From Bolinopsis microptera (lineage: Eukaryota > Ctenophora > Tentaculata > Lobata > Bolinopsidae), in assembly GCF_026151205.1 (NCBI RefSeq), contig NC_087081.1, forward strand, positions 10,231,113-10,295,112: a stretch of 64,000 bases of DNA, read 5' to 3'. Of the stretch, positions 6,120 through 35,277 are shown piece by piece; position 1 is the first letter of the stretch; every line of letters starts with the position of its first letter. The notes under the pieces are model-generated. The model searched no databases. It saw only the letters and a program-made list of their open reading frames with translations, and had not been told where the DNA came from. A program made the translations under genes and the position numbers.

Positions 6120-8480
6120 AGCTTAACGACTGCTTTTATTATTTAATATGATATATTTATTACGTAATATTATATGGATCTGGGAAAACTAACAAAAATT
6201 CGGGAGACTGAAGCAAGCCAAATCTCCAGTCGAGTTTTAACTAACTTAATTAAAAAGCTTTTTCACAAATTTAACCCAGAATTAGTAACATCAGCGTACT
6301 AATCTTTTTTGTCTTCAAGTTGTTTGTTCCCATTTCCTCACTATGTCAATATGTGTATAGATATAAGAGTGGACCGCTGCCATGCCAGTGTCTCTCTTTC
6401 CCAAACAAAAGGAAATGATATTAATTTGAATGAGCGTCCGGGCGTCCGCAAATGCAAAATGATGCCGAGAATGAAATCGGTCGCTCGCTAGTTTCCCAGT
6501 CAAATTTAAGAAAGAAAATTTTACTTTGTGGACAGAGTGGTTGCTGCTGCCTGGAAAAATTAATCATACTGCATGCCAGCAACCCTCTGATCTCCTCTGT
6601 CTTTAGATTAATGGAACAATAAAAAAGTTCTGTTTAGCCCAGATCTGCGTTTTTATTCTGTACTACTTTTAGATCGTTCCAAAAAGGTATAACAAATTTG
6701 ATACTGTGAAAATTCTCACAGTCTCTAGAAAACAATGGTACACAAATTTTGAAAATCCGAGCAAGTTTATTTTTATCGTGCACCCCCTAGTACTACTTGC
6801 CACTAAACCCACATCCTTTGCCTTTAGATTAATGGAACAATGAAAAATATCCGTTTAGCCCAAATCTGTATGTTTTTATTTTGCTGGGCGGCGCTCAGCC
6901 TGTCATTCCGCCGAATCTTTATTCATTCCGCCGAATCTTTACTGCTTGCCGCTTAACCTATCCTTTGTCTATAGATTAACAGGACAACGGTGAATGGAAA
7001 AGTTTTGTTTATGGTTTAGCCCCTCCACGTGTTTATTACTCGGTTATTGTAGACATTTGGTCCACAATTTATTTATCGGCTTTATTTATTTTGTTTCATC
7101 GCTGATATTGACGAGAATCCAAATTAGCTTTTCTCAACGACCATATGAAAAGTATTCTGATCTCATGCTTGATATGGTGAGAGACATATGATTATTATAT
7201 TATATTTACATTAGAGGAGTAATAAGTTAAATATGTCTAGATATTTGAATATTTGTGCGGGCTCAAGTCAACAACTTAGTCAGTGTAATAAGGGACAATA
7301 GCGAGCACAGAATTATTTGTCTCCGATTTTGATAAATTTGGTACCAAAAGTTGCCTCAAAGTGTGAATAATGCAAATTAACCGTGTAGCACGATTAGATC
7401 GAGCTGTATGACTAGGTGGGCATACTTTGCATTGCAAAAGTGTAAAAAGGACGAAAAACACAGTGAATTTCAGTGTGATTAGGACATCATAATGCATAAC
7501 CTAGCTCTCAAGCCTGTTTGAACTTGCGTAGGACTAAAACACCTCCCACAAGCTTGGAGACTTATCAAACTAATAATATTGCCGAAGGTCGTTATACTAT
7601 CGTGTATACTTCTAATTATAAATCAACTACACGAACAAGTTCTTTTTGTCTATAATCAAAATTTGCTCTAAGTAAAGAACCGACCAATATTATTCATTGT
7701 CATTCAATAAAAGTTCGTTTTCGGACAATAAAAAACAAAAAACGTTAACCACCCATGCCCCAGCCCCTGCTTGATTCTTGAACACTCCATTCGCAGTTCG
7801 CACCCTCCATTAACTCACTTTAATGCGGATAAACATACCATTGTGAGATATAGTATAATATAGTATATATTCATAGTATAATATTCATTTTACTTCTTCA
7901 AGATTGCTAGCAGTTGATGAGAATTTAGGGCTGAGGCCCACTGTTTACAACGACGATATGAGGTGCTTCATGATCTCATGTTTAATAGGGTAAGAAATGC
8001 TTATATATGTTTTTCAACCAATTGTTCTACTAAAATTTACTCAATAACACTGTAGACTGTAGAGTAAGGGGTATAGAATGATACGTATCATTTGGAGGAG
8101 TGATTTATTATGCGTCCGGATTCTCCATTTGAATCAAATGAGAACTATATTATTCATCTTTCAGCAAGGTTTTAATATAATATTGAAGTCAGGTTTTAAT
8201 ATTGAAGTCACTTCATAATTGTAACACTACAGCAGTTTATAGGACATGAGAATTTTGGAAATTTGACTTTCATTTGAATATTCAAATGTTATTTTGAGCC
8301 TACGTCTGCAATTATTATAAACGCAAATGTAATGAATTAATTAATTTACTTTTCCTATTCGCAGTTTAACGCTGGTGCTTAATCATGGGGTGAGAACCGA
8401 GGGCACAGCAGAAGAGGACAATGCGGGTGAGTACCATAGTGAGTCACAGTTTTAGCTGCTTAAACTTTTTTATTCTTTCT
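6120..8480. other. non-coding stretch, few repeats
   Basis: No gene is supported. It holds a truncated family A copy (6883-6941, with a duplicated ATTCCGCCGAATCTTT segment) and a 120-bp repeat at about 6668-6795 that recurs in the same orientation at 53,607-53,730. Two short exon-like segments (about 7125-7180 and 7930-7990) share a caacga-atatgaa...gatctcatg pattern before a GT, but no wider gene model could be built. Confidence 0.5.
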
Positions 8481-10768: not shown

Positions 10769-11250
10769 AGTGAATTCTTAAATACAACAGATACGAAATA
10801 TGACCGGATTTGATGAGCATATCAAAGGTCATTTTCGTCAAATGGGTTATCCTGTATTTAATATTTCATGCTTAAAGCATCAGAGATACCCGATTTTTAA
10901 AAACCATTTTTTACTAGGCTACCTCGGTCCTGCATTTCAGTGTAAATTTAGTAACCCCGAATTGGATTATAAAATAACCAATGGTTCTGAGCAACAAAAC
11001 TTCTAATAAAGCTGACAATATACCCAACTCAGATGTTGCACCGACTACTGAAACTGGTATCTCATGGTTCCGAATCGTTGATGAAAATGGAAACGATCTT
11101 CCGGAGGATGAAAAAGGTCTGTTGCTTTACAAGGGTGGAACAGTGTGTGACGATTATTTTGATTATAATGCCGCACATACGGTTTGTAAAGAAATAGGAT
11201 TTCCTGGCGCACAAAATTGGGAAAAGGGAGACTATTTTAGCTTACAGGAT

Positions 11251-11675
11251 AGTAGTATACATAATAGCCCCGATACCCCACCTAAAAATGAGCCACCTGA
11301 TTTTGTGTATAATTACGTAATTTAACCCTAATTAGTGGTGATTTTTGCTAATCATAATTGTTAATTGTATACACTAACCCTAATTAGGAGTGTTTATTCC
11401 TCATTAACATTTTGCTAATTTGGGGAGACCATACTATTACACTGAGGCTAACCCTAGATAACAATTATGTAGTGTGTACTGTAACTTGAACACTGTGTAT
11501 GTTGCATGAGAATTGAGAAACTATATACAATAGTTATTGTCAGAAGCTTTTAGCCACACCTGTTCATACTATATAGAGGAGCAAGTACTGGAGCAGCATT
11601 GTGCACATCTAATTACAACCCTTATATGTCTATTAATAGAAAAGTCATTATTTGTAACATGGGAGTATCACGTGA
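11251..11675 (+). repeat. left terminal inverted repeat of the PolB element
   Basis: About 425 bp, starting AGTAGTATACATAATAGCCC. It matches the reverse complement of 19,885-20,309 nearly base for base in the outer 270 bp and more loosely inside (small substitutions and indels). The outer part holds several AACCCTAATTAG-like motifs. Homology fades after gggagtatcacgtgag. Confidence 0.85.
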
Positions 11676-12029
11676 GTTCTATGCTGTTCTTTAGTGCTAT
11701 CTTGTGACAAACATGTGGGCCATTAGACACTCTACAAGGATTTATTGTCATATTTCATGAGAGTTTGAAACAAGGAAAGAGTTATTTTAGAGTATTTAAG
11801 CTTTAGATGTTTTAAATGAGTAAATTCAAACTTTATTTTAAATGCTGCGTCCATTGTGAAATTATCAGTGAGAGCTTAGTGGGACCTGGTTTCTTAGCGA
11901 AGCCAGGTGTCACGCCTTTTGGGTGTAGCAGTTGTTCCCTTCCGAACACTCTGCTGCACATTGTGCACTATGTACATTGTACAACGTACATTTGCACAGC
12001 TCTCCAAAATTTTACACAGCATTTAAATT

Positions 12030-12430
12030 AATGTTCTTCTGTTCAAGTTACAATTGTCTAGTTCTTGAAAGTTTTATGTTGATTAGTAGTTGACTTGCCA
12101 TGCTCATTGATCATTTTGTTGTGTAGTCACTTGCCAACTTTCTTTCCAGTTGTGTTCTTTTGTTCAAATTACAATTGTGTAGTTCATTTTCTAGATTTTT
12201 TTTTTGCTTGTTGTTGATTAGTTGTTGTCTTGCTTTGCTCATTGATCAATTTCTTTTTTTTTTATGTGAGTAGTAACTTGCCAATTTTATTTTCCAGTCG
12301 TGTTCTTTTGTTCAAATTTCAATTATGTAGTTCATTTTCTTGAAAGTTTTTTAGTTTTTGTTGATTAGTAGTTGTTTCGTCTTTATTTTCTGATTTTGTG
12401 TAGTTACTTGCTAACTTTCTTTTCAGTTGT
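12030..12430 (+). repeat. three tandem copies of a ~130-bp T-rich unit
   Basis: Each unit starts GTTCTT(C/T)TGTTCAA, contains GTTGATTAGTAGTTG and ends in a CTTTCTTTCCAGTTGT-like segment. It lies between the left TIR and the PolB gene, where no gene is seen (11,676-13,078). Confidence 0.7.
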
Positions 12431-13078
12431 GTGATGCACATATTTTATCTTTGTCTTGTTTTCACTGTGTGCTAAAGTCTATGTAGTTACGACACTATTT
12501 CTTTATTCTTGTTCGCAATTGTTTTTTTTTCTTCAGTGCTACCGTTTACCAGGTCTTTATTAGCATTGTTATTTATAGCATAATATACTGAATCCTCCTT
12601 CTTGTAAAATTGTAATAGGAATTGATACAAAGTAAACTGCTCACTTGTCATGTTTTCCTATTTATGTTTTGAATAACTTTTAATATCACACGGTAGGGAA
12701 TGACTATGATGGATCGATTGAGATAAATCTTGTCAGTGTTGACGAAATATTAATAACGAATCCTCTGAGAACAATAATCAGAAATTCATCCTATATAATT
12801 GAAACCAGGTTGACATTTAATAACATAGTAACATAATCCGTAGGTCTATCAGGTAAAAGAGTCAATCCCACTACTGGAGACACTTTTGAATCTTCTTTTT
12901 TTTAAAATCACTTTTAAATTTTACTTTACTCAACTGAATTACTTAACCTAAAAAATGTTGCTTAGAAACCAACCACCAGAAAGTTTTTAAAAATAAAAAT
13001 AAAGAGGGGGAAAAGACACGTCGATCCGGTAAAGCAGATTAGCTGTTTTTGATTACCAGGTGAGAATGTCTATGACTC

Positions 13079-13086
13079 TATAAAAG
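13079..13086 (+). promoter_or_regulatory. TATA box upstream of PolB
   Basis: TATAAAAG lies 106 bp upstream of the PolB start codon in the only well-formed TATA context of the region. Confidence 0.5.
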
Positions 13087-13191
13087 CTTTACAGACTTAT
13101 CATTTTGTAAACATTTGTGGTAACTAAACCTTGTCGCTAAAATAATATATTTGTGTACACCCCCAGATTTACCTGTTTGTAAAAAGAAACC

Positions 13192-16100
13192 ATGAAAAGA
13201 CAGGCTGGGACCTCTCATCATAGTGATGACAAGCACAGGATCCTGGAATGTCCAACTTGTTACAAGTGTTTTCGTTCCAATAACCTTGGCAGACATTTAA
13301 AGACCCACAATTCATCTAAAGAATGTAGATTCTGTAAGAAGATGATTCGTACAGATGTCATGCTGAGACATGAGACATTGTGTAAAGATAAAATAGACGA
13401 GACTCTTTGCAATCGTCGGGACTGCTCTTGGCTGGAAACTCACCTAAAGTGTAGCTCAGTTTCTGGTTGTTTTAAAATCTTTGAACTTAATGTACAGCAC
13501 AGCCTTGATTATGATGAAATTATTTCCAACGTCATAAAAGCTGCTGAGCCTTTCTGTAGGGATCTACTAAGTATTCATCCAATCAAGGCTCAGATAGTTC
13601 TTGATCTTGAATTCTTCCACGATTCCTACGAAGGGAGAGAGTACGCCAGCAAGATTTTTAGATCTATTGTGGAACCTCTGCTATTTGGTGACAACCTTGA
13701 AAAGTTCTTGGACAGGGCTCAAACCTATCTGAAAGCACAAATTGAGTTGTATGAGCGACTTGGCTCTGGTTGGCAGTTCAGCAAGCTTAAGAATACCTGG
13801 ATTGAGGTCAGCAAATACCGACCTTTATCTGGAGCTGGAACTGTCGACATTCCAAAGCTTGTCAAGAACATGAAGTCCGTACTCAACATCACTTCCAAAG
13901 ATAATAAGTGCTTCCTATACTGCCTACTGGCTAAACTCCATCCAGTTAAAGTCCACCCTGAAAGACACACTAAATACTTGAAGTATTTAGATGGAATTAA
14001 TTTAGGAGATCTAGCTTTTCCAATCAAGATATCTGATATAGGAAAAGTTGAGACCCTCAACGATCTATCCATCTCAGTCTTTGAATGGACCAAAGATGAT
14101 GATTCTGTAATTCCTTTACACCATGGCTCCGGAGTAGGAAGACATATTGATCTTCTGTACATAAGAGATGAGTTTACTGGTCACTATCTGCTGATAAAGA
14201 AATTCAACGCCTTTATGCGTCACCGTAGCAAATACCATCACTCTATGCACTTTTGTCGACAATGTATGCATGGTTTTACAACCGCTGATGGACTGTCTAA
14301 TCACTCTGAATTATGTCATCAGGGTGTAAATCAAATAACGAAAATTCCTGAGCCAGGAACAGTGACTGAGTTTACAGCCACGTACAAGATGGACAAGAAG
14401 TTATTTGCGGTCTACTTTGATTTTGAATGTCTAACGGTACCAGTAGATGAAGCTGGAGATAAACATGGGAAGACCACAAAATATCAGCAGCATGTTCCTT
14501 GTAGTTTCTGTATTGTCACAAAATCAGAGTTTGCTGATTATGAAGCAGAAACTATCGTGTACAGTGATAGCGACCCGAGTAAGCTGATTGAGAAGTTTCT
14601 GGAGGAACTTGACAGGGTATATGAAGAAATGATAGATTGCTACGAAACCCATCAGTATCCTATACACATGACAGCCAAAGATGAGGATGCTTTTATTTCA
14701 TCTACTCACTGTTTCATGTGTAAGAAAGAGCTAGACTGGGAATCCGAAAAGAATTACCCTGTCAGAGACCACGACCACGGCAAAAAGAAAAATAATTTTC
14801 GAGGAGCTGCCTGTAACTACTGCAATATCAACTTCTTTAACAGGACCAAGAAAATCCCTGCATTCTGTCATAATCTAAAATCATATGACATGAACCTGTT
14901 TCTATTGGATTTAATCAAGTCGTCTGGAAGAATTAATGTCATCCCTGAAAATTTAGAAAAATTCAAGGCTATTTTCACGGAACAGTTTACTTTCTTGGAT
15001 AGCTTTTCATTTTTGTCGTCTTCTCTTGAAAGGTTGGCAGATGATCTTAAGACATCAGACATAAACGCTTTCAAGCGACTTAAAGCTGAGTTTCCTACTG
15101 GTTACAAGTCCTTGACAAACAAGGGTGTCTACTTCTACGATTATGCTTCTTCATTCTCAGTTCTCAGTCAGACTGAATTCCCTCCCAAGGGCGCTTTTTA
15201 CAACAAGCTGAAAGATGAGGGAATCTCAGATAGAGATTACGAAAGAGCAAAATTGGTCTATACCGAGTTTAGCTGTAAGAACTTGCAGGACTACATGGAA
15301 GTGTACGTTAAGACAGATGCAATTTTGCTCTGCGATATCTTTGAACACTTCCGAGAACTTTGTTCTCGTTATTACGAGCTTGATCCATGCCACTACGTGA
15401 GCCTACCTGGATTCACTTGGGATGCTATGCTCAAAATGACTCAAGTCAAGATAGAACTCATCTCAGATATTGACATGTACACGTTTGTTGAGCGAAACAT
15501 TCGTGGTGGAGTGTGTACCATCAATCACCGACACTTTATTGCTAATAATCAGTATCTAGATGACTTCAACCCGAACGAAAAGTCATCATTTATACATTAT
15601 GTGGATGCAAACAATCTATACGGAGCATCAATGTCACATCCTTTGCCGATAGGAAATTTTCGATGGTGTGAAGATATTGAGAACTTGAACATCATGGAAT
15701 TAGATCCTGATGGTGACACATGCTACATATTGGAAGTTGATCTAAATTATCCTGAAAACCTACACGTCAGTCACTCCGACTATCCCTTGGCAGTTGAGAG
15801 AAAGGTGGTCCTAGAAAGTCAGCTGTCGGACTTTAATAGAAGCTTCCTGAAAAAAATGAACAAAAAGTTTCTACCCACCACTAAACTCTGTCCAGACTTG
15901 ACTAACAAGGTTAAGTATGTCCTATCACTGAGGAATTTACAGCTCTGTATTAGTGAAGGACTGGTGTTAGAAAGAATTCACAAAGTTTTGATGGCGAATC
16001 AAACGTGTTTCTTGAAGCTATACATTGAGTTTAATTCAAAGAAGCGCTTGGAATCCAAATCTAAGTTCTCGTCAGATTTCTTCAAACTCTGTAACAACGC

Positions 16101-16920
16101 AATTTATGGAAAGTTCATCGAGGACATAAGGAAAAGAACCAATGTTTCTTTAGTAAAAGGTGAGCGAAAAGCTCAAAAGATCATTGCTAAACCGCAGTAC
16201 CAGGGATTCCGAGTTTTGGACTCGGAAGTCACCATGGTCCAGACATTAAAGAAAGTTGTCCATCTAAACAAACCAATTGCCTGTGGGTTTATTGTCCTGG
16301 AAAACGCCAAGTGTATCATGGGAGAATTCTGGTACAAAGTGCTCAAACCTCGCTATGGTGATAACTTGAAGCTCCTTTTAAGTGATACTGATAGTTTTAT
16401 CTACAGCATCTATACTGTTGATGGCTATCAAGACCTTTACAACATGCGTGAACACATGGACTTGGCCTCTTATAGGAAAGGGACTCCTCTGGAAAAGTTT
16501 CTGGATACAATCAATAAGAAAGTGCCAGGAAAGTTTTCAGACGAAAAACCAACTGAGATCCTTAAGGAGGTGGTGGCCCTAAAACCAAAAATGTATTCTG
16601 TCCTAACTCAAGTTCTCATATGTTCAAAGGTTAATGAAGATAACCACTCATGCTCCAGCTCTTGTAGAATAGGACATACTGCAATTGCTAAAGGAATATC
16701 AAAAGCAGCAAAGAAGAAAATATCGCACGAAGACTATCGCCAAGTATTAAGTTCAGGAACTGTAACAATGTCAGAAAATAAGTCAATCCGCTCATTTAAT
16801 AGAACCCTTTACTCAATTAATGTAAGAAAACAAGCATTATCATCATTTGATGACAAGAAGTTCATACTAGAAAACGGTATTGACACTTTAAGTTATGGAC
16901 ATTTTAAATTGAAAGCATGA
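13192..16920 (+). CDS. protein-primed type B DNA polymerase (Polinton-like PolB)
   Basis: A single uninterrupted 1242-codon frame. The N-terminus has two or three Cys/His zinc-binding motifs (CPTCYKCF at about 20-27, CRFCKKM at about 46). The 3'-5' exonuclease domain shows the D-x-E motif (DFE, residues 410-412) and an ExoII motif ending in D566. An HNH / endonuclease VII-like zinc motif (HCFMC at 506-510, VRDHDHG at 524-530, then CNYCN) lies between them. The polymerase domain has motif A DANNLYG (805-811), motif B KLCNNAIYGK (965-974) and motif C SDTDS (1064-1068), with a KPKMY motif near 1127. All catalytic residues are intact, so the enzyme looks functional. Homologues replicate Polintons and related animal DNA viruses by protein priming. 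No introns are needed, and the intact frame argues for recent insertion or selection. The start ATG follows a TATA box and gives the complete zinc-finger region. Confidence 0.93.
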   Translation: MKRQAGTSHHSDDKHRILECPTCYKCFRSNNLGRHLKTHNSSKECRFCKKMIRTDVMLRHETLCKDKIDETLCNRRDCSWLETHLKCSSVSGCFKIFELNVQHSLDYDEIISNVIKAAEPFCRDLLSIHPIKAQIVLDLEFFHDSYEGREYASKIFRSIVEPLLFGDNLEKFLDRAQTYLKAQIELYERLGSGWQFSKLKNTWIEVSKYRPLSGAGTVDIPKLVKNMKSVLNITSKDNKCFLYCLLAKLHPVKVHPERHTKYLKYLDGINLGDLAFPIKISDIGKVETLNDLSISVFEWTKDDDSVIPLHHGSGVGRHIDLLYIRDEFTGHYLLIKKFNAFMRHRSKYHHSMHFCRQCMHGFTTADGLSNHSELCHQGVNQITKIPEPGTVTEFTATYKMDKKLFAVYFDFECLTVPVDEAGDKHGKTTKYQQHVPCSFCIVTKSEFADYEAETIVYSDSDPSKLIEKFLEELDRVYEEMIDCYETHQYPIHMTAKDEDAFISSTHCFMCKKELDWESEKNYPVRDHDHGKKKNNFRGAACNYCNINFFNRTKKIPAFCHNLKSYDMNLFLLDLIKSSGRINVIPENLEKFKAIFTEQFTFLDSFSFLSSSLERLADDLKTSDINAFKRLKAEFPTGYKSLTNKGVYFYDYASSFSVLSQTEFPPKGAFYNKLKDEGISDRDYERAKLVYTEFSCKNLQDYMEVYVKTDAILLCDIFEHFRELCSRYYELDPCHYVSLPGFTWDAMLKMTQVKIELISDIDMYTFVERNIRGGVCTINHRHFIANNQYLDDFNPNEKSSFIHYVDANNLYGASMSHPLPIGNFRWCEDIENLNIMELDPDGDTCYILEVDLNYPENLHVSHSDYPLAVERKVVLESQLSDFNRSFLKKMNKKFLPTTKLCPDLTNKVKYVLSLRNLQLCISEGLVLERIHKVLMANQTCFLKLYIEFNSKKRLESKSKFSSDFFKLCNNAIYGKFIEDIRKRTNVSLVKGERKAQKIIAKPQYQGFRVLDSEVTMVQTLKKVVHLNKPIACGFIVLENAKCIMGEFWYKVLKPRYGDNLKLLLSDTDSFIYSIYTVDGYQDLYNMREHMDLASYRKGTPLEKFLDTINKKVPGKFSDEKPTEILKEVVALKPKMYSVLTQVLICSKVNEDNHSCSSSCRIGHTAIAKGISKAAKKKISHEDYRQVLSSGTVTMSENKSIRSFNRTLYSINVRKQALSSFDDKKFILENGIDTLSYGHFKLKA

Positions 16921-17780
16921 TTTCATCTTACTCTCAAAAACTGTAAAACTGTAATATATGGAATAGACTTAATCTTATTTTATATTTTCCAAAACTGTAA
17001 AACTTTAGTGAATACTGAAATGAGTTTAAGTTAAATGAACATAACTAATTAATTTGGGTATCATTTTTTTCTTCTGTTAGATGCATCATTTTAATGCTAT
17101 GTAGTAATTTAGAATTTGAGCGAATACCGAAATAACTTTTAATTAAATTTATTAATTTTAATATTTTGATTTATTTAGCGAATACCAAAATATTTGAAGC
17201 CATCATACTGATTGTAGTTTATAGTATATTTTCATCTAAATGCATTTATATTATGTAATATATTTTTTTCCTTCCTTCTCGAAGACAGAGTCATCAATGT
17301 TTTGAAAATAAAGTAAAACAGAATAAATTTGATTGAGGAATTCACAGCACAATCCTTTTTTTTATTTATTTGTATTAATGATCACTTTTATTTTGTGTCT
17401 AACCATTATGTATTTCATTGTGTTCGTGCACCGGGACAACATGCTATGGTGAATAGGCAAAGATTAAAATGAAAATATGATACAGTTGGAGGCATCTTCA
17501 TTTAGAAAGGATTTACCGAACAAATTCTTTTGATAGCTTTTGTAACTTTTGATAGGAAAGGAACAAATGAACTGTGTTTTTTTTTTGAGAGTTTGTAAAG
17601 GGAGTGATACAACCTGTTTGAAAATTTATCCCCGTTTGATGCAAGACTTAGGCTGTATACTATTCAATTGGTTGGGGTCATTGTCAACAAGTGCTTAGCA
17701 ATAGCGAATAAATCTGTTAGTCAATCCAAGTATTCAGTCAAAAATTGTCTTGCATGCTGTAATTCAGATTTTAATTCGTG
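16921..17780. other. non-coding spacer inside the PolB element
   Basis: AT-rich DNA after the PolB stop. AATAAA at about 17,307 is a candidate polyadenylation signal for PolB. Short repeats of aaaactgtaaaact and gcgaataccaaaat type occur, and no open frame is convincing. Confidence 0.45.
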
Positions 17781-18100
17781 ATATGGGTGATATCACCGGG
17801 TGATACGGGTGATATCACCGGGTGATATGAGTGATATCACCGGGTGATATGGGTGATATCACTGGGTTTATGGTTTTTGCATCTATATTGTGAATTATCT
17901 ATATGTTTTAACGGGTGATATCACCGGGTGATACGGGTGATATCACCGGGTGATATGAGTGATATCACCGGGTGATATGGGTGATATCACCGGGTGATAT
18001 GGGTGATATCACTGATATCACCGGGTGATATGGGTGATATCACCGGGTTTATGGTTTTTGCATCTATATTGTGGAATTATCTATATGTTTTACTTATTTG
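17781..18100. repeat. palindromic iteron array (GTGATATCAC) in two blocks
   Basis: The 10-bp palindrome GTGATATCAC recurs ten times, mostly in a 22-bp unit GTGATATCACCGGGTGATAY plus two bases. It is arranged in two direct blocks (about 17,786-17,867 and 17,913-18,048). Each block ends in the same tail (GGGTTTATGGTTTTTGCATC, then a TATATTGTG...TATCTATATGTTTT segment). The array sits between the convergent 3' ends of the two element genes. Dense palindromic iterons suggest a binding array for an element-encoded protein, or a replication or termination site. Confidence 0.8.
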
Positions 18101-18310
18101 CAAATTGAAATTGATTTATGAAGTTTGTTTAGTCTTTTGCGTATTTCATGACAATATTAATAAAAGAAATAGTTTTTTTTTTTTTAAATACTAAAAAGAA
18201 TTGAATATATCGAATAACTTTTAAAAAATCCCTCACTACAATATTTTTAAATTAATACGTAATTCTAAATTTTAAAAAAAAGAAAGAAAAGTCGAATATT
18301 GAGTAATCAA

Positions 18311-19231
18311 TTATCCATAGTCCCTTTCTTCAATGTCTGAATTATCACTAGTATAATATTCTGTCTGAGTCTCATCAGCTGAATTTTCTTCCTCTATTTC
18401 GTCGCTTGAACCTTCTGAATCATCGTTTTCAGTTTGACCTGTAGTCTCATAATTTTGAGATTCTTCGTTTTCGTCCGATTCATCTTCATTTTCAAAATTA
18501 GGTTTTTGCTCAAACGAGACAGAAGTAAAAGCTTTTTGTAGAGCAAAGAAATGTTTGTGCACGATTTCTTGAGCCTCTTCAAATGAAGCATCATATATTC
18601 GTCGCAACAGGTTTTCTATTTCAGGACTATGATCAAAATTGTCAAGAAGTATAAGAACTCCATTCTTTAGAGCTACTATTTGTTTCTGGATTGCTCCCAC
18701 GTCATTGCTTTGGAATAATTGCTGAACGTTGGTTGCATCCTCCACTGTTTTGACAAACGATTGATCCATTTCATCTTCACAAGATTGCTCTAATCTTTTT
18801 ATTTTTCTTTCAAGATCTCCTATTCGTTCAGATTGTCTTTTAGTCTCCCACTTTATCTCATTGGTGTTGTCGTGATTGTAATTCATTGGTGTAGGAAGAT
18901 CATCACGTTTACTATACTCCAGCGAGAATATCTTAGCATCCAATTCCCTCAATTTGTCCTCTTGTTTGTCGTTTCTTTGTTGTACAATTTTCATGAGATC
19001 TTTCAATTCACGTAGAGCTAATGAAACTGATGTCTCACTTGTTACAGAGACTGATTCAATATCACTATTGATAGACAAATTATCAAGATTTCTGCAGTCT
19101 TTATTAACTGAACGTGTGTCAGAATGAAATTTGTATTTGTGTGACGCCAAGCTTCGTGAAGTTTTAAAAGACTTGTAACAATGGTTACATTTGTGGGAGT
19201 ACACCATCTTTGACATAGCGTTACTAGTCAA
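18311..19231 (-). CDS. C2H2 zinc-finger, coiled-coil protein of the PolB element
   Basis: A 306-residue intronless ORF. Residues 15-36 form one classic C2H2 finger (CNHCYKSFKTSRSLASHKYK...H, spacing C-x2-C-x12-H-x4-H). Residues about 80-160 are charged and heptad-like (LRELKDLM, LRELDAKIFSLE, RIGDLERKIKRLEQS) and probably form a coiled coil. The last 60 residues are strongly acidic (Glu/Asp/Ser-rich, ending in a SDIEERDYG tail). No match to Polinton integrase, ATPase, protease or capsid folds is visible. Its gene converges on PolB across the palindromic iteron array, so a sequence-specific DNA-binding, oligomerising role on that array is a reasonable guess, not shown. It has its own TATA box 34 bp before the ATG. 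Confidence 0.8.
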   Translation of the reverse strand: MTSNAMSKMVYSHKCNHCYKSFKTSRSLASHKYKFHSDTRSVNKDCRNLDNLSINSDIESVSVTSETSVSLALRELKDLMKIVQQRNDKQEDKLRELDAKIFSLEYSKRDDLPTPMNYNHDNTNEIKWETKRQSERIGDLERKIKRLEQSCEDEMDQSFVKTVEDATNVQQLFQSNDVGAIQKQIVALKNGVLILLDNFDHSPEIENLLRRIYDASFEEAQEIVHKHFFALQKAFTSVSFEQKPNFENEDESDENEESQNYETTGQTENDDSEGSSDEIEEENSADETQTEYYTSDNSDIEERDYG

Positions 19232-19264
19232 ACGTGAAGTGACTTAAACTGTATAGAGTCTCCC

Positions 19265-19272
19265 TTTATATA
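19265..19272 (-). promoter_or_regulatory. TATA box of the zinc-finger gene
   Basis: TATATAAA on the minus strand lies 34 bp upstream of the ATG at 19,231. With the usual 25-30 bp TATA-to-start distance, the 5' leader would be only a few bases. Confidence 0.55.
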
Positions 19273-19884
19273 GGACGTTTTTTGTTTTGTTTTACGCGAT
19301 GTCACAAAAGTTAATAAGCTCTAAAAAACAATGAAGCGTATCGTAGCGCGTTAATTAGGAAATGATCCTGTTTATGAGTTCCTTATATAGCCGATTTATT
19401 GGGGGTTGAGAAATTTACTGTTTTAGTGATCTTAACACATTATTTAAAATAATGTTCACTCATATTAACACGATTGATTAATTTGCTGCTCTCCTATACT
19501 GCATGCTGTGTACTATGTCATACTGTTGACACACAATAATAATAATTCATTCGGTCAGATGTGTCAAATTGATCGATAAGATATTTCAAGTGTAACTCAT
19601 CAAAACTGGCTGATTCTTTTGTCACATCAACAGGTGTTGTGACTTTGAGTATCCATACAGATGCAATCATGGGTCAGTATTCAACTTAATCCTGATCCAG
19701 AAAATCGAGCTTTAGGTTAAACAATTGCACCTTGTATACTTTCCTCGGATCCAGGTTTGGGTATTAACTTCTCTCTTAGGTCACGGTCTGACAACTTAGA
19801 AATATCCCCAAAGGTCAACATCAGTCCTTATTAGAAAGCTAAAAGGTAATAAGAAAAAACTTTCTGTGTGTCACAAGTTAACAC
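19273..19884. other. non-coding part of the PolB element inside the right TIR
   Basis: No gene. AT-rich DNA between the zinc-finger promoter and the right terminal inverted repeat. Confidence 0.4.
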
Positions 19885-20309
19885 TTACATGATACTCCCG
19901 TATTACAAATAATGACTTTTCCATTAGAAAGTATATAAAGGTTGTGATTAGATGTGCAAAATGCTCCCCCAGCACTTGCTCCTTTATATAATATGAACAG
20001 GTGTGCTTGAAAGCTTCTGACAATAACTATTGTATATAGTTTCTCAATTCTCATGCAACATACGCAGTGTTCAAGTTACAGTACACACTACATAATTGTT
20101 ATCTAGGGTTAGCCTCAGTGTAATAGTATGGTCTCCCCAAATTAGCAAAATGTTAATGAGGAATAAACACTCCTAATTAGGGTTAGTGTATACAATTAAC
20201 AATTAGGATTAGCAAAAATCACCACTAATTAGGGTTAAATTACGTAATTATACACAAAATCAGGTGGCTCATTTTTAGGTGGGGTATCGGGGCTATTATG
20301 TATACTACT
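19885..20309 (-). repeat. right terminal inverted repeat of the PolB element
   Basis: Inverted counterpart of 11,251-11,675. The outermost bases are GTATACTACT, followed by the target duplication CAGGAT (20,310-20,315). Confidence 0.85.
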
Positions 20310-20645
20310 CAGGATAACTTGAACATCAAACTGGATAATGTACAATGCCTTGATGATCATGAGTGGTCATCTTGTAGTTACAGTGAAACTCACAACTGTG
20401 GCCATAGCGAGGATGTCTTCCTAACTTGTGGCGGAGGTAAACTTTTTAAATAGACTGATTATGACTATTTAAATTGTATAAAGGTTTTGTCAAACGTAGT
20501 CGTGGCTACACGGAAGTAATCATTTCCTAATTTTATCACGATTTTGAGGTAGACGTTATGAACCAAATCAAAAATTATGCTCACCATATTCTTACTTTCT
20601 ACGACTACGAAGCTAGTGATACCAACATAATGTTCTATTTCTCAG

Positions 20646-27524: not shown

Positions 27525-30500
27525 ACTACTTTAGGTTACTTTAGGTAGGTTCGGCAGGGATCGCTTCTGGACAACAGTATCAAGTACGTCCTCCAATCAC
27601 TCCTGGCTTAGATCTTTTTGTAGAGTCCATTCCAGAAGAGAATTATTTGTGATGGCGGTATACCCTTTTGTGGGCGGGGTGTCCGGGAAGCCTTTCAGGA
27701 ATTTAGCAAGGGAGGATTTGAAAGTTTCCAAGACTTGGATTGTATTAACTTCCTTGGGGAGCAGGTTCCATAGTTTGGCTGCTTTTACTCCAAAAGAGTT
27801 TTCATAATGGGTCGAGATTGAGCATTGTGCCTTTTTGTTAAATGCAGGCACAGTCGCCTTTACACTGTGTCGGGAGCTTTCCTTGAACTGCATGTTGATG
27901 TCGTTCGGAGCTAATCCATTCATCATCTTCCATGTATGGATTATGATGTATCGTTCTCTGCGTCTCTGTAATGAGAGAAGATTCAGGTTCTGCAGGCGTT
28001 CCCAGTAATCAAGGTTCTGGCAGCCACTGATTCGACGAGTGTAGTGTCGTTGGATGCTTTCAATAGCTTCTATATCGCTGATCTTGTCAGGGTTCCACAC
28101 CGGGCAGCAGTATTCGAGTTTGCTTCTCACCATGGTTTTGTAGAGTGTGAGCATGAGGAAGCGTGACCTATCTCTGAATACGCTAAGGACCCATGACGTC
28201 ATCGTCCTTGCTGTTTTAGCCATCTGCTGTATGTGAGAAGACCAGGAGCAGTCATTTGACAGGAGAACCCCTAGGTCCCTCACAGTTTTGGCTGGGTCAA
28301 TAGTTCTTCCATTTGTTAAATTGTAACAGGAATATTAACTGGTGAAGGGCAATTCTCTTAACAGTAATGAATTGTTCAAGCTGTAATTCAATATTTCGAA
28401 TTTGGCCTCATTTAGTTGCATGTTGTTCTTCAGGGCCCAAGCGATTACATTTAGGAGGTCGTCTTGAAGTAGGCTTTTGGTAGCTAAGTCCATGATTTTT
28501 CCAATGAGCTTGGTGTCGTCAGCAAACACCTTTCCCAGAGCGGTAACCAATGTATCAAGTTGGTCGTCAATGTATAGAATGAAAAGAATGGGTCCCAATA
28601 CTGTTCCTTGGGGTACCCCACTGATTACTAGCTGAAAGGATGATTTTGTTCCTTCCACGACCACAGTTTGCAGGCGATCCTTCAGGAATTCAGTCAGCCA
28701 TTGCAGAGTCTTTCCTTTTATTCCATAGCGTTTTGCCTTTGCAAGTAATATTTGATGATCTACCTTATCGAACGCTTTGGCATAATCAAGGTATATAACA
28801 TCAACCTCGTTGCCGTCGTTGAGAGTTTTCAGGATGTTATCTACGTGGTCTATTGGTTGAGTTAAGCAGCTTCTTTTCTTGCGGAATCCATGCTGATGGG
28901 GGGAGAGAAAGCTGTTTGACTCCATATGTTCCACAAGATGATTTCTGACCACTCTCTCAAATATCTTAATAATGTGAGAGGTTATCGAGACAGGGCGATA
29001 GTTAGCGGCAGATGTTCGGTCTCCTTTCTTGAACACAGGCGTGATGTACTGTGTCTTCATGCCATATGGTATGACTCCGTTATCAAATGAGCGTTTCCAG
29101 AGTAGATAAATTGGTTCAGCGATTGTCCTTCGACATTTAGTTAGGATCTTGGCCGGGATGTCACCATCAGGGGTGGAGGCATACGGGTCCAGTTCCTTTA
29201 TGGCATCTGATATGTCGTCTGCTGTGAAGGTGAATGTGTTGAGATCTTCTTTTGGATGAGGATCTAATCCGGCGAGGCATTCTTCAACATTTGCAGAATT
29301 TGGGTTGCTGAAGACTGTGACATATTGAGTCTGGAGAATTTCTGCTTTTTCCGCTGGGTCCATTTTCAGAGTTCCGTTTTTATCTCTAATTGGGGCGACG
29401 GATGATTTTACCTTTGCAAATCGTTTAGCGTAAGAATAAAAGAATCTTGGGTTCGTCTTTATTGTACTTACAGCTTTAACTTCTTTTTCGTTAAGTTGCT
29501 TGATCACAAGTTCACTTATTTCGAAGGTCAGAAGATTCACTTCGGTTTTCAGCTTTTCGATTTTTCTCGAAGTTGGGTTGTTTTGAGTAAGTGCACTTAT
29601 TTGGGCATTGAGTTTTCTTCTTTTCCTCTTCATTGTGTATTTTTCACGGACTTGGCGACTTCTACGGGGGCGGGAAGGGCCAGATCCAGTAGGGTCTTTA
29701 GAAGGCGAGTTTAGGAGGGTTATCTGGAGGACAGTTAGGCGTATCAGCTCCAGAAAGGCACTTCCATCTTCATCTTCATAACAGAGTTCTCTCAAAGAGA
29801 TCCAGTTAACAGCTTCTAAACGATCGTTCATTGCTTCAAAATCTGCTCTATGAAAATCAGTCGCCCGAAAAGAGTTTCTGTCGAAAGATATAGGAGTATG
29901 TTCTTTTGGGCAGAGCGGGTTATGTCCGAGAACGAGCTCGACTAGCCTGTGGTCAGATAGTTGGCATTCGGAGATATTTGTCTCAACTGTGTCCTGTGGT
30001 TTATTTGTGAGGACGAGATCGATGGTGTTGTTATTTCTCGTGGGCTTACAGATCATTTGTGTCAAGAAATTTCTCTCCATGAAATCAATTAGTTCGGAAC
30101 AAGCTTGCTGGTCACAAAGCGGTTGACCAGGTAAAGCTTGGCAAGAGTCCCAATCTATATTTGGGAGGTTGAAATCCCCCATAATGTAGATGTCAGGTGA
30201 TCTATCGTTCGATGTCAAGTTATTTAGTTTCTCCTGCACCTGGTCCAGGACTGCTTTGAAGGATCCGGGAGGAGCATCTGGTGGGCGGTATATCACGGAG
30301 ACAAGGGCGTTCATAGAGTCTATGAAACAATGCAGCATACTGCAGTGTTTGTCACTAAAATTTACAGTATCTGATACTAGCAGCGAGTTTTCAACGTAAA
30401 GCACACAACCACCACCTTTTCGACTATGACGGTCTGCTCTAAGACTGCTGTACCCATCTATAGCTATTTGAGCATCACTGATATATGGCTTCAACCATGA

Positions 30501-31706
30501 TTCAGTGATAGCGAGAATAGGGACCGGGGGTCTTCCTAGGTCGTCAAGTATGTGGTCTTGGATGAATGGAATCTTCCATTTTACAGTGCTGGTTGCGGCT
30601 GGGGAGATGGACCGAGCATTCAGTAGCAAGATCCTTGATAGTTGGGAATGAAGTTTAGTGGCATCGGCATCCGCATTGGCTGGTTTGGGAGTGGCACTTG
30701 GGCTGAGAACTGTGCTGGTGGTGGGAACTGTGTCGAGATTTGCTGAGAGGATGTTTGGCGTGATCTCGGGTCCAGCTGGCTCCGTTGTGTCTCTTGGACA
30801 AGGGCTGGAATTTGCCCTCGAAGTTCCTCCATTTTGGAGTTCATCTGGGTTATAATTCCGTGTTTCATGTTTTCCATGAGCTTCTCTAAAAAAGCACTAT
30901 CCCTCTCAGATGTACTGTCTTTACGTTGTCTGAGGGGTTTCTGATATTCAACAGTGGGTGGGTAGGGGGTGTTGAGGGAGTTTAGACTACCCATTCTGTC
31001 CACATCATAACCACCAGGAGGCGGCCAGGAACTTCTGTTCGTGTTGAATTCTATTCTTCTCGTATCTTTGGGCTGCTGCTGCTGAGGCAGGCGATTTCTG
31101 TCAGTGAGATTCACGTTTCCAAGATGATGGAAGCCACAATCGCTGTTTAAACATACGTGATTCGCAACTGAATTACGGCACAGTTTAGGGTGGAACAAAG
31201 TGCATTTCTTCCCATTCCTGCATCCTCTGCGTTTGTCGTCTCCGAAATTGGAGTAAAAGCGGCACCTGATGGGGTGCTGGTATGAGCATTTCTTACCACC
31301 AATGAGACGTTTGCCAGTGAGGCCGTGGGGACACTTCCTCATAGTGTATTCCCGGCAAATCTGGGGGTTATTTTCGGTATCATTATGTCTACCTCTTCTA
31401 GGGCTTTCCCTGTCTTCATCCTCATCCTCATCTTCATCGTCGTTTCCCTCGCCCTCTACCTCAGATTCAACCTCTTTAATAGTGGATAGATCTGTTATAC
31501 TATCTGTGTTCCTTTTCTTGGTAGGTTTCTGGGGAGGTTGAAGTGAGCGTGTTTCGTTCTTTTTTGAACATTCGTAGCAGAGCCAAGATCCTCCTAAAGG
31601 AAGCAGTCCTTTCTGAATGAGGTCGTTGAAGGTCTTGGCTTTTTCGGCCATGGCTTCACAATCGTGGGAGCCCTGTAAGCATAGCCGGCATCTTAAATTA
31701 ATTAGC
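27525..31706 (-). mobile_element. CR1/jockey-superfamily LINE with CCCH-finger ORF1
   Basis: A minus-strand retrotransposon with overlapping ORF1 and ORF2 sits in the intron between the two halves of the last block-B SRCR domain. Comparison with the same intron in block A (22,756-22,902) places the insertion between about 27,525 and 31,706. The 3' end carries two copies of a CCTAAAGTA-type motif, as in CR1-like 3' tails. The start of ORF1 lies at the junction, so the 5' end is truncated or minimal. No clear target duplication was read. Confidence 0.85.
27597..30629 (-). pseudogene. LINE ORF2: endonuclease and reverse transcriptase, one stop codon
   Basis: About 1010 codons. The N-terminal AP-type endonuclease has ITESWL, MGDFNLPNIDW and LSDHRLVEL. 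The RT has FKKGDRTSAANYRPVSI, HGFRKKRSC, YLDYAKAFDKVDH, SGVPQGTVLGPILF and the catalytic FADD box (KVFADDTKLIG). The C-terminal part has VRDLGVLLSNDCSW and a LEYCCPVW motif. A single in-frame TAA (28,335-28,337) separates the first 764 codons from the last 246, with no frameshift. The frame has no ATG near its start: it is open upstream into ORF1 in the -1 frame, suggesting that translation depends on frameshifting or reinitiation. Confidence 0.85.
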
Positions 31707-31708: not shown

Positions 31709-32091
31709 ATTTTAACTCTAAACATTTGAAAATTTTGCACTCAATTCTTAAATCTTTCAGGGATTGGCGTAACCAAACAGACGTACCAGTAACATTGGGT
31801 GAAGTAAGCTGTAAAAATAATGACACTGACATATCAGATTGCGATTCTAGGATTAAGAGACATGACTGTAAATACCGGGACAGCATTTGGCTCCGCTGCT
31901 TTAGTAATACAGGTTTGATGTTAATTAATATGTAATACAACAATATTTATATTTTGATTAATCGGGACAGAAAAGTCATATTCATATTGTCGATCAGTAG
32001 GGAAAAATTTAAGGTGCAACAGATAGTTCTCAAAACTTTGTAGTTCTATTGGAATTTTTTAGATAGCAATTGTTACCTAGCAATTTTCCAG

Positions 32092-35000
32092 GATGTGCAA
32101 AGGAAAATCAGGACGTATCACATAAAAATTGCGCTATAACAAACATTGGTGGATTTTTGAAGAAACTGTGTTTTGATGAGAGTAGAAAAGAGTACTTTCA
32201 CATGTGTGCCTATTCGAATGTTAGCTATGTAATGGGTAGTGAGAATAACACGCTCTCAAGTGTCTCCTCTGTGTGTCAAAATGATCAGTATGTTTATCAG
32301 GCGTGTGGTTTTAATACAAAACCAACAAAACAAAGTTATTTCCTTTGTGGAGGTTATTTCAGTGGGTTAGGAGTAAATAGTTTTGTGGTGTGTAACTTGG
32401 ATTGTGAGAATTATTCTGGTGAGAACACATCATTGACCACTTATACGGACAGCAGCACAAATATTGAGTGCGATGACAAATGTGACATTATAAAGTGTGA
32501 AGATGAAAGTCAGTGTGGTGGTCACACGTACGGAGTTAACTGCGAGTATTATAAACCTGTATCCTATGTTTGTGATGGACATGATGATTGTACTGACGGG
32601 GAGGATGAAAGGGACTGTGATGTTGAGAACACCACACTACACACCTGTATTCATTACTTCAGTAAAGTGACGTATGGACACGACATTCTAGCCCCCATAC
32701 TTAATTACACTAGGTGTGCTGTGTTTGATCTCAGTTCAGGTGATAAATATCCGTACTGTTACAATTATCTAGACCAGACAAACTGCACTGATGTGACCAG
32801 AGTGGGAGGACACTGTTTGATCAGTGGTTATATGTCTAGTGTCTCCAAGTACGTGGTCTGTGGTAATGAATTTAAGCAGGCCAATGAGCCAGTTAATCTT
32901 TGTGATGATAACCTAGAAAATGAATGTAATTCACCACCTGGGTTAAGTGCAGACTGTCTTGTTCACAAACACAAACTCTGCGATGGATTTAGTGACTGTG
33001 TTGATGGTAGTGATGAGACTCTTGATATATGTCACTCCACAACGTTGGGTTATTTGAATTGCAGTCGAAGCTTTAATGCCGATAAAAACATGCCAATACC
33101 TGTCGCATGGTTACTGGATAATCAAAGAGATTGTTTGAATGGAGAAGATGTAAAAGGAAACTTTGAGTTGACAAACTGTGGAGAGATAGATGAAGGTACT
33201 AAGAGAATATATTTAGGAAACAAAACCTGCCAGGATGTTTTACTGTGTCCTGGAGATTCTGAGAACGGCTATGTTGAATTTAACTTTCTTTGTGATGGTA
33301 TAAATTCTTGTGAAGTTGAAAATGAGATCTGTATGATTTCAAGAGATTTCCCGAGCATCAATACATCTGCTATAATCAAGAGCTGTGCTGTACGAGATTT
33401 GTGCGAATCAATGGAGGAATCTGAACATTCTAATTGTCATATTCAGGAATTTGAGAGTTCAGCAGGAAATGCGTTTGGTGTCAAAATGGAAATTAACGTC
33501 CCAACATCAAACGTTAACTGCAGTTATCAGTTTGGTGAATATTATGTCTTCTTGAGTTGCATGGGTTTATGTCTAAATGCTACTTGTCCTCTTCAGAACA
33601 CTTCCCTAGAATATGATTCATGCCCTGGTCAGTATCCTGACCGAGTCTACACTCTCACGAACAACAAAGCTCTCACTTTTGTCACAATGTCCGATGAGGG
33701 TGAGTATGAAAATGCATACTTCCAATGTGAAAACAATAAATGTATTGAATACAGTCAAGTATGTAATCTTGTTGATGACTGTGGTGACATGTCGGATGAA
33801 CGAATTTGTACAAACCATTTAGTTTGTGAGGATACGAAAAACCGGACAGATGTAAAAGACCACCTAATATCTCATTCCCAGAAGTGCGATGGGAGATTTG
33901 ACTGCTTTGATTTATCAGATGAATGTAATCTGTCATGTGGTAAGGAAATCTTAGCCAATTGGGCATTGAAACTTAATTGCTGGCTGCTGGGCCTTTGTGC
34001 AGTCATTTTTAATGTCATCATGGTGACCAAAGTTGCAAGTTCCGTAAGAGAATCCGAAACAGGTAGTATGCTTTGCACTAGAGTGCTTGTCTGTATAATC
34101 GGATTAGGAGATTTCCTTATAGGAGTTTACTTGATCATATTGTCTGTATTCGACAGTATCATTTTAGGAAAGGATTACTGTGCAAAGCAAGCAGAGTGGT
34201 TATCAGGCACTGCTTGTTCTGTTTTGGGAGTGATCAGCACTACGGGATCACAACTATCGCTATTTTCAATGACCGCGTTAAGTTTGATGAGGATGTGGGG
34301 AATCATGAATAGTTCTTTGAGAGCTCCTACCCGCGTCAATAAAAGAGCAGTAACAAAAGCTGCCGTGATTGTGATCGGAGTGGTTACTGCCTCGCTATCA
34401 GTAGCGATTGTACCCTTGATCCCCGCCCTAGAAGACTACTTTGTGCAAGGCATGTTCTATGATCCAGACTACAAGTTATTTATCGGTTTTCCGAACAAAA
34501 TAAAGCACATCAAGATTCTTGACGCATACTACAAAAATGAGAATTTCTCCGCTGATACATCTTGGGCTGAGATCGGTGAAAAGGTTGATGGCATGTTCAC
34601 CCAAAGTTATGGTAGCTTAAATAAAGGTGCCGTCCACTTTTATGGTAATGATGGCGTGTGCCTTTTTAAGTACTTTGTTCGAAGTGACGATCCTAGAAGA
34701 AGCCGAACAACATCGGATGTGGAAGTGGACATGATCGACGTGAAAGGAGATATGATAGTATGGGTCATGCTGGGTGTCAACTTATTCTGCTTTGTGGTGA
34801 TTACTTTGTCTTACTTGTTGATCAACATAAAAACTCAGAAATCATCCAGGAGTTCTGGACGAAACAAAAATCCACAAGCTCTCCGTAAAAGCCGGGAAAT
34901 GCAAAACAGGATTGCTACCATCATTGCAACAGATTTTGCATGTTGGGTACCATTTAAGCATTATGATTATAAGCGGGCTCCACAATCTCGAGTCAATCGA

Positions 35001-35277
35001 TGCTACAGATTGGTACGTAACATTCGCAATGATAGTTTTACCACTGAATTCTGTCATCAACTGTTTACTGTATGACAACACTGTGAGAGAATTTTTTAGT
35101 AAGATTATCCAACGTTTTGCTGTTAGATTTTCAAATGGTGTCAGTTATTTAAGATCGCTTCGAAATGCTCAAGCAGCACAAACGCAAGTTATTATTGAAG
35201 AAATGGGAGACAATATTGGCGAGGGAATGTCGCCTGTGGCACCCTCAGACGAGATTATCACGAAAACGCCAATTTAG
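32092..35277 (+). pseudogene. LDLa-repeat, LGR-like seven-transmembrane receptor exon with frameshift
   Basis: One large exon starting after TTTTCCAG at 32,091, in phase with the preceding SRCR exon. The ectodomain has about five LDL-receptor class A modules, recognised by the C-D-x4-D-x3-DE type calcium motif: CDGHDDCTDGEDERDC (about 32,570), CDGFSDCVDGSDE (about 32,980), a weaker one near 33,290, CNLVDDCGDMSDERIC (about 33,765) and CDGRFDCFDLSDEC (about 33,885). The 7TM domain (about 33,950-35,080) resembles leucine-rich-repeat/relaxin-type receptors: GLGDFLIGVYL in TM2, EWLSGTACSVLG before TM3, FACWVP in TM6 and LPLNSVINCLLYD in TM7 (Cys for the usual Pro). The E/DRY site reads MRM. The second extracellular loop is unusually long, about 105 residues. 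Near 34,950-34,956 the frame shifts by one base between TM6 and the rest, so the uncorrected frame stops at 35,073. The C-terminal tail ends at 35,277. Confidence 0.8.

Follow-up and report, generated by a model that had tools for sequence, protein, structure and literature searches.

Polintons (Mavericks) are recognised by a 6-bp target-site duplication, long terminal inverted repeats (TIRs) and AG...CT ends. If an element with these features encodes neither an integrase nor virion proteins, then how did it become inserted in a chromosome? The question is raised by an element at 11251-20309 of the window, a 64,000-nucleotide stretch of the genome of the ctenophore Bolinopsis microptera. A preliminary description of this DNA had proposed either that the element borrows an integrase or that it represents a compact lineage moved by its own two proteins. 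The analysis described here supports its membership in a lineage, in which most relatives are palindromes of one half of the element, and the favoured reading is that the integrase is borrowed and supplied in trans.

The element is 9,059 bp long, its boundaries are exact to the base, and it is a genuine insertion in a host SRCR exon. Inverted-repeat comparison gives TIRs of 427 nt with 95% identity (11251-11677 on the plus strand and 19883-20309 on the minus strand); the element starts with AGTAGTAT, ends with ATACTACT and is thus of the AG...CT type. CAGGAT is read directly outside both ends (11245-11250 and 20310-20315) as a perfect 6-bp target-site duplication. The flanks match PF00530 as the left (10981-11250) and right (20310-20450, end approximate) parts of an interrupted plus-strand SRCR exon. 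When the element and one CAGGAT are excised in silico, the SRCR frame is open again across the empty site, and the rejoined exon scores 49.7 bits (profile positions 19-99), compared to 23.6 bits for the left flank alone. The clean transposition noted in the preliminary description is therefore borne out. Additionally, the same termini recur in 15 elements, 14 of them with a perfect 6-bp duplication, and the boundaries are thus not due to chance.

Scans of the open reading frames (ORFs) and of the gaps between them agree with the earlier claim of one intact polymerase and a single further ORF. The former is a family B DNA polymerase (PolB) of the protein-primed type (1242 aa; 13192-16920, plus strand), identified by its ORF, profile, conserved residues and fold. 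The latter is convergent to it, on the minus strand, and encodes a protein with a C2H2 zinc finger, a predicted long helix and an acidic tail (301 aa; 18311-19216; ORF and model); its ORF opens at a TTG at 19231 (18311-19231, 306 aa), and the first ATG is at 19216. With a threshold of E<=0.1, tblastn queries of a chromo-integrase, an ATPase and three neighbouring ORFs from a Polinton of the same genome matched neither the element nor anything else in the window, nor any of the 20 element loci searched. The reported lack of integrase and ATPase genes is therefore upheld. No capsid or protease gene was seen, the open frames in the gaps being too short, although no dedicated capsid or protease model was run: the longest stop-to-stop frames are 71 aa (11678-13190), 69 aa (16921-18310) and 51 aa (19232-19882). 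The claimed lack of a capsid gene thus stands as far as frame length goes. Altogether, the sequence supports an element that appears to have no trace of an integrase or ATPase and no room for an open capsid gene.

Whole-genome TIR, protein and pattern searches, with both termini required, found at least 15 elements with these termini. These measure, in kb, 9.1 (window), 20.6 (C13a), 9.7 (C5b), 8.5 (C12a), 10.3 (C5a), 7.7 (C6), 5.2 (C89), 5.0 (C7a), 3.6 (C13b), 7.9 (C12b), 7.7 (C11), 12.1 (C9a), 15.3 (C7b), 14.4 (C9b) and 8.2 (C13c). C9b and C13c were read at their ends only, and their contents are taken from the coordinates of protein and module searches; single-ended, rearranged or unread TIR fragments (L022-L030, L032 and further rows) are left out of the 15. 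Since only a fraction of the candidates was scored in several searches (40 of 63 for the TIR, 37 of 215 for PolB, 40 of 53 for a 209-bp module described below and 114 of 278 for the integrase), the genome counts are lower bounds. One terminus search gave 30 matches compared to 23 in a backwards control and is not significant alone; a second gave 25 compared to none. The perfect duplications of the 14 elements all differ in sequence. The elements with these termini yielded no integrase: tblastn was run directly on 13 of the 15, and none of the genome-wide integrase matches listed falls in the other two. With 15 elements in which no integrase was found and a PolB evolving under constraint (see below), the window element belongs to a lineage and is not a single broken copy, which bears out the lineage part of one alternative of the preliminary description.

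The composition of these elements is uneven. PolB and zinc-finger genes occur together in three (the window element, C13a and C5b), whereas ten are inverted gene pairs, with two zinc-finger genes in six (C12a, C5a, C89, C7a, C12b and C11) and two PolB genes in four (C9a, C7b, C9b and C13c, the last with one copy truncated). The preliminary description had proposed as a check whether many copies share the two-gene layout with conserved PolB frames; this layout is the minority (3/15), and most relatives are one-arm palindromes. Of the remaining two, C6 has one zinc-finger gene, an inverted fragment and a 2-oxoglutarate (2OG)-oxygenase/GDSL ORF resembling an ORF of the C13a insert, and in C13b a divergent PolB fragment (38.8% over 49 aa) lies between inverted arms of 978 bp. 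C13b has no ORF of 100 aa and neither gene intact, yet it is flanked by a perfect 6-bp duplication; its centre had no match in the other element or locus DNA compared. By eye, C13b seems to contain introns and to be similar to the PolB region of the C1 Polinton, an impression given no weight here. Larger relatives with integrase and capsid genes had been named as evidence of a mere deletion derivative, and C13a (20.6 kb) was examined as a possible complete parent. It was rejected: its PolB is split by an 11.4-kb retroelement-bearing insert, which has the 5-bp repeat GTATT on each side and contains ORFs of the RVT_1 and 2OG-Fe(II)-oxygenase/PHD types, and the extra length is not integrase or capsid DNA. 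Apart from the 15 elements, AGTAGTATATAAAATGGTAC occurs twice, in direct orientation and with the same flank, 4.9 kb apart (L047 and L048; C7:2680540-2685510), and may belong to another element or to a tandem repeat.

Each of the ten palindromes is enclosed by one matching 6-bp duplication, different in all ten, which argues that the palindrome existed before insertion. Eight were read in sequence as inverted dimers of one terminus with both ends intact, and two (C9b and C13c) are so judged by coordinates and ends. The arms differ by substitutions and indels, and their identity within an element is 98.6-99.94% in seven of the eight palindromes measured: 99.6% in C12a, 99.5% in C7a, 98.6% in C89, 99.5% in C11, 99.6% over 3.3 kb in C5a (the centre of which is not a simple mirror), 99.94% over 4.7 kb in C9a and 99.3-99.9% in C7b. 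The exception is C12b (97.5% over 2.8 kb and 99.7% over 0.66 kb). In comparison, when zinc-finger arms are paired across elements, 20 of 21 pairs have identities of 94.1-98.5%, and identity is about 98% between C9a and C7b, both of the PolB/PolB type. Such likeness, mostly higher within than between elements, is consistent with a single cycle in which one arm served as the template for the other. The axis spacers are 14 bp in C7a, 28 bp in C12a, 96 bp in C89 (a TIR fragment) and 283 bp in C11. In the window element, comparison and a frame scan place a non-coding spacer, shared with C13a at 97%, between the convergent genes (16921-17777), followed by a palindromic tandem repeat array with six copies of GGTGATATCACC in 315 bp (17778-18092). 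The match of the zinc-finger arms of C89, C7a, C12b and C11 to the window element begins at about the PolB-proximal edge of this array, a position that is approximate because the array is repetitive, and extends outward only. C12a (L012:487-8954) is in itself an 8.5-kb near-perfect palindrome with 4.2-kb arms in an animal chromosome assembly, a host-type tRNA-Gly (CCC) lies inside both ends of the C12b palindrome (L018:419-491 and 7624-7696), and more distant PolB fragments form a further inverted pair at C8:6278690/6286123.

The domain order of PolB is N-terminal C2H2 fingers, a probable terminal protein (TP)-like domain, a putative OTU-like domain, exonuclease and palm. Among the 46 relatives found, the best (97% identity) is on a 4.8-kb contig and the rest range from 72% down to 29%; two are named to species, from the ctenophore Mnemiopsis leidyi (64%) and the beetle Onthophagus taurus (33%). 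The exonuclease and palm residues D410, E412, D709, D805, N808, Y810, G811 and K965 are invariant in 22 aligned proteins, in which D1065, T1066 and D1067 are at least 90% conserved, and a profile search of the genome scored PF03175 on PolB at 50.0 bits (cut-off 25.8). According to PMC11071308, Polinton polymerases have a TP domain derived from a little finger, followed by a viral OTU domain with a catalytic Cys and His. A structure model of residues 1-440 (mean predicted local distance difference test score, pLDDT, 79.6) has Y-family little-finger regions as its best PDB matches (E 2.8e-3, probability 1.0, TM-score 0.16 of the query). An alignment of 28 sequences shows no variation at C240 or H331, which we read as the likely catalytic pair of the putative OTU-like domain. 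In a viral structure library, the best match of the N-terminus is a C2H2-type protein of Drosophila-associated adintovirus 2 (E 2.9e-23), and a MELD-virus protein also matches (E 6.9e-12). A PDB sequence search matched the zinc fingers alone, and no PolB relative was found in viral contigs with a one-protein query sensitive to close relatives only.

PolB is under purifying selection: calculated with our own Nei-Gojobori script, the ratio of non-synonymous to synonymous divergence (dN/dS) of the window PolB is 0.11 relative to both C5b (dS 0.086) and C13a (dS 0.20). Of the 11 PolB copies that the 15 elements contain, nine have an uninterrupted frame from end to end. Zinc-finger copies of the same family are intact in 12 of 15 cases (299-301 aa; the C6 fragment is left out of this count), and the altered ones are C12a-left and both C12b copies. 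An AlphaFold model of the window protein (mean pLDDT 58, helices only) was set aside as evidence, and a PADLOC scan of it gave no match. Divergent zinc-finger genes (25-29% aa identity) occur as four inverted pairs, and in the one pair compared outside the genes, 300 of 300 nt are identical.

If the lineage has no integrase of its own, then a donor might be sought in the same genome. Polinton-type integrases occur elsewhere in it at about 33 loci, 15 of which are stop-free over at least 311 aa. The 33 were listed by hand from 80 rows, decayed fragments included; short rows (C5:5371813, 5510455, 5532714 and 11184797) and long-ORF retrotransposon-like rows were excluded. The one locus that was examined has rve and Chromo domains, with a C2H2 ORF on one side, which resembles the window zinc-finger protein in the finger only, and on the other an ATPase ORF that is matched weakly by ATPase_2 and Adeno_IVa2. 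PolB was detected within 10 kb of only three of the 33 loci, to which further searches added none. The C1 Polinton end was not located in L042, and no terminus was found in L052. A 209-bp module (L031:5810-6018), which overlaps a 117-aa ORF of unassigned function, is common to the PolB palindromes, three zinc-finger palindromes, single PolB loci and ten integrase loci. It lies upstream of all five single PolB loci, and at 79-83% identity it lies 6.8-15.3 kb from the ten integrase loci, all of which are of one integrase subfamily (63-69% to the query) and none of which has a detected PolB. Additionally, at C8:1585635 (L029:4776-5035), 149 bp of the TIR directly abut a Polinton ATPase fragment of 111 bp (92% over 37 aa), which points to past exchange with packaging-gene Polintons; the second end of this fusion was not found at L029. 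The module and the fusion are taken as probable signs of shared ancestry or recombination between the groups, and not as proof of the donor.

These observations are probably best explained by an integrase-less and capsid-less lineage derived from Polintons, in which protein-primed linear replication yields the palindromes and an integrase acting in trans inserts them. From a probable TP-like domain within PolB itself, one would expect protein-primed replication of linear DNA with strand displacement, the enzyme copying a linear extrachromosomal form from both TIR ends. At the palindromic array or at TIR-derived sequence, the polymerase might switch to the displaced strand, or that strand might fold back; the resulting hairpin would give a palindrome of one arm with a functional TIR at each end. 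Palindromes of the zinc-finger arm or the PolB arm could then be replicated in trans. Finally, an RVE-type chromo-integrase, most likely from the integrase-bearing Polintons of the same genome, would insert intact elements and palindromes alike with 6-bp duplications. In PMC4974454, phage phi29 is described as forming subgenomic molecules of 1-8 kb, mainly from the right end, with template switching tied to a zone between convergent transcription units. The two window genes likewise converge on the joint region. C13b carries a duplication but no intact gene, so neither gene is needed in cis, and the proposal that mobility depends on PolB plus the zinc-finger protein is not sustained to that extent. 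A borrowed integrase, the other alternative of the preliminary description, fits better because one-gene palindromes and C13b share the 6-bp duplication and integrases exist elsewhere in the genome.

Several observations weigh against this explanation. Among the matches listed, no integrase-bearing element with these termini was found and no terminus of the family lies within 10 kb of the 33 integrase loci; the closest terminus-like match is 10.7 kb from one, faces away and may be due to chance. The identity of the integrase donor is thus circumstantial. As regards the polymerase, hmmscan of the window PolB alone missed PF03175, which was seen in two of the 22 homologues; the model of residues 1-440 has no PDB fold match below E 0.001, and its match to OTU proteases is weak (4boz, E 0.046, probability 0.35). 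Between the PolB/PolB elements C9a and C7b, dN/dS is 0.25 on 18 differences. The zinc-finger copies have dN close to dS (93 synonymous and 388 non-synonymous differences in 66 non-independent pairs), so their differences appear near-neutral and support for selection on this gene is lacking. One duplication, that of C5b, is not clean (CTCACT/GCACTG). Likeness between elements is in places as high as within them, at 99.4% between C12a and C5a and at 99.4% over 1.2 kb in the centre module of C9a and C12a, while the two TIRs of C89 are only 95.4% alike and the ends of C9a 97.2% over 870 nt, with differences that are mostly gaps. Chromosomal gene conversion could equally keep arms alike. The window TIRs differ by 5.4% and each has a different nearest relative, which suggests that recombination too has shaped this element. 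The window element and C13a differ at dS 0.20 in PolB and 0.012 in the zinc-finger gene, and C5b has a PolB at 98% next to a zinc-finger protein at 25%. With these unequal dS values, the TIRs of different relationship and the mixed genes of C5b, arms appear to reassort between elements. A PolB relative (P0006, 68%) and a zinc-finger relative (P0047, 92%) are also present on a 366,795-base contig, probably the same one, and on it too the two genes would then diverge at very different rates.

The elements could instead be plain internal-deletion derivatives of a complete Polinton, with PolB kept by recency only. The TIR fused to an ATPase fragment, the divergent PolB fragment between family TIRs in C13b and the module common with ten integrase loci all agree with this, but a dN/dS of 0.11 at dS 0.09 and 0.20, full-length frames in nine of 11 PolB copies, the absence of a detected integrase in two PolB subfamilies that are 42% apart and the absence of a full-length parent with these termini among the matches listed do not, and this reading is unlikely, if a serious one. 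Given the past exchange with packaging-gene Polintons, deletion from a complete Polinton may nevertheless lie at the origin of the lineage. Rather doubtful is a multipartite Polinton, in which PolB segments, zinc-finger segments (mostly palindromes) and separate integrase/packaging elements would share termini or modules, complement each other in trans and reassort their arms, and none would have to be complete; as it overlaps with the best explanation, it is rated above the narrower idea of a split Polinton. In the latter, integrase/packaging elements and PolB or zinc-finger elements would be complementary parts that share modules. The PolB elements do lack a detected integrase, PolB is rare near the integrase loci, and the module accompanies both the ten loci of a single integrase subfamily and the five single PolB loci. 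However, the PolB searches scored just 35-37 candidates each, intron-bearing PolB genes are easily missed, and the module may be ordinary regulatory sequence. A split Polinton is thus very improbable.

It is improbable, too, that no RVE integrase is involved and that the element is inserted by PolB and the zinc-finger protein themselves, for instance by an Endonuclease VII-like insert of PolB. An Endonuclease_7 match is present, although weak (E 0.0024 in the window PolB and E<=0.01 in 15 of 22 homologues), and both genes are kept where the integrase is not. In contrast, one-gene palindromes and C13b carry the same duplication and ends, Polinton-type integrases are present in the genome, and a 6-bp duplication with AG/CT ends is what a Polinton RVE integrase would be expected to give. 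Finally, the palindromes might be chromosomal rearrangements or assembly artefacts and not products of replication. Long palindromes are known assembly traps and gene conversion can homogenise arms; nevertheless, all ten have one matching duplication each, all of these differ, the arms differ by substitutions and indels, and the design is repeated at ten loci and in the divergent zinc-finger family (28-29% aa). An artefact is therefore barely credible.

Outside the element, the window contains a long interspersed nuclear element (LINE)-type ORF with RVT_1 and Exo_endo_phos_2 domains (28335-30629, minus strand), and a 1001-aa ORF (32070-35075) that by eye has cysteine-rich low-density lipoprotein receptor-like repeats followed by a membrane region.

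If the explanation by linear replication and a borrowed integrase is true, then the palindromic half-elements are a genomic record of linear protein-primed replication in an animal nucleus, and the family is a record of an integrase acting in trans. Two questions could then be tested, whether the replicating form of Polintons is free linear DNA and what sequence an integrase requires at the ends. The family would also illustrate how a virus-like element can lose its genes for integration and capsid and still survive. The Polinton polymerase and ends, non-autonomous transposition and short by-products of protein-primed replication are already known. Their combination in a lineage that propagates itself, has no integrase and is integrated mainly as half-palindromes with genes did not appear in the accessible parts of the open-licence literature, where no report of palindromic or integrase-less Polintons was found.

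In comparison to Polintons/Mavericks, the window element has the long TIRs, the 6-bp duplication, the AG/CT ends and a protein-primed PolB with exonuclease, palm and probably a TP-like N-terminal fold, but it is 9 kb long, has no integrase or ATPase match and no capsid-length frame, and its relatives are one-arm palindromes. It may resemble adintoviruses in the PolB N-terminal fold with C2H2 fingers, a structural match of the N-terminal 440 aa only, and differs from them in that no integrase or virion genes were found in it. Foldback elements and non-autonomous transposons similar to miniature inverted-repeat transposable elements also have long inverted repeats and are mobilised in trans, as is proposed for this family; the palindromes described here, in contrast, hold duplicated and mostly intact genes and are halves of a known element. 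Reportedly, the short molecules of phi29 are palindromic and a deletion derivative of the kalilo plasmid forms hairpins. Unlike these products, the palindromes described here occur as insertions flanked by duplications in a nuclear genome. The likeness to phi29 lies in short molecules that derive from one genome end and in template switching near convergent transcription (PMC4974454). Similarly, linear cytoplasmic plasmids have a TP-vOTU-Exo-Palm polymerase and no morphogenetic module, according to PMC11071308; the window family would share this layout and this lack, but is integrated in the nuclear genome with 6-bp duplications.

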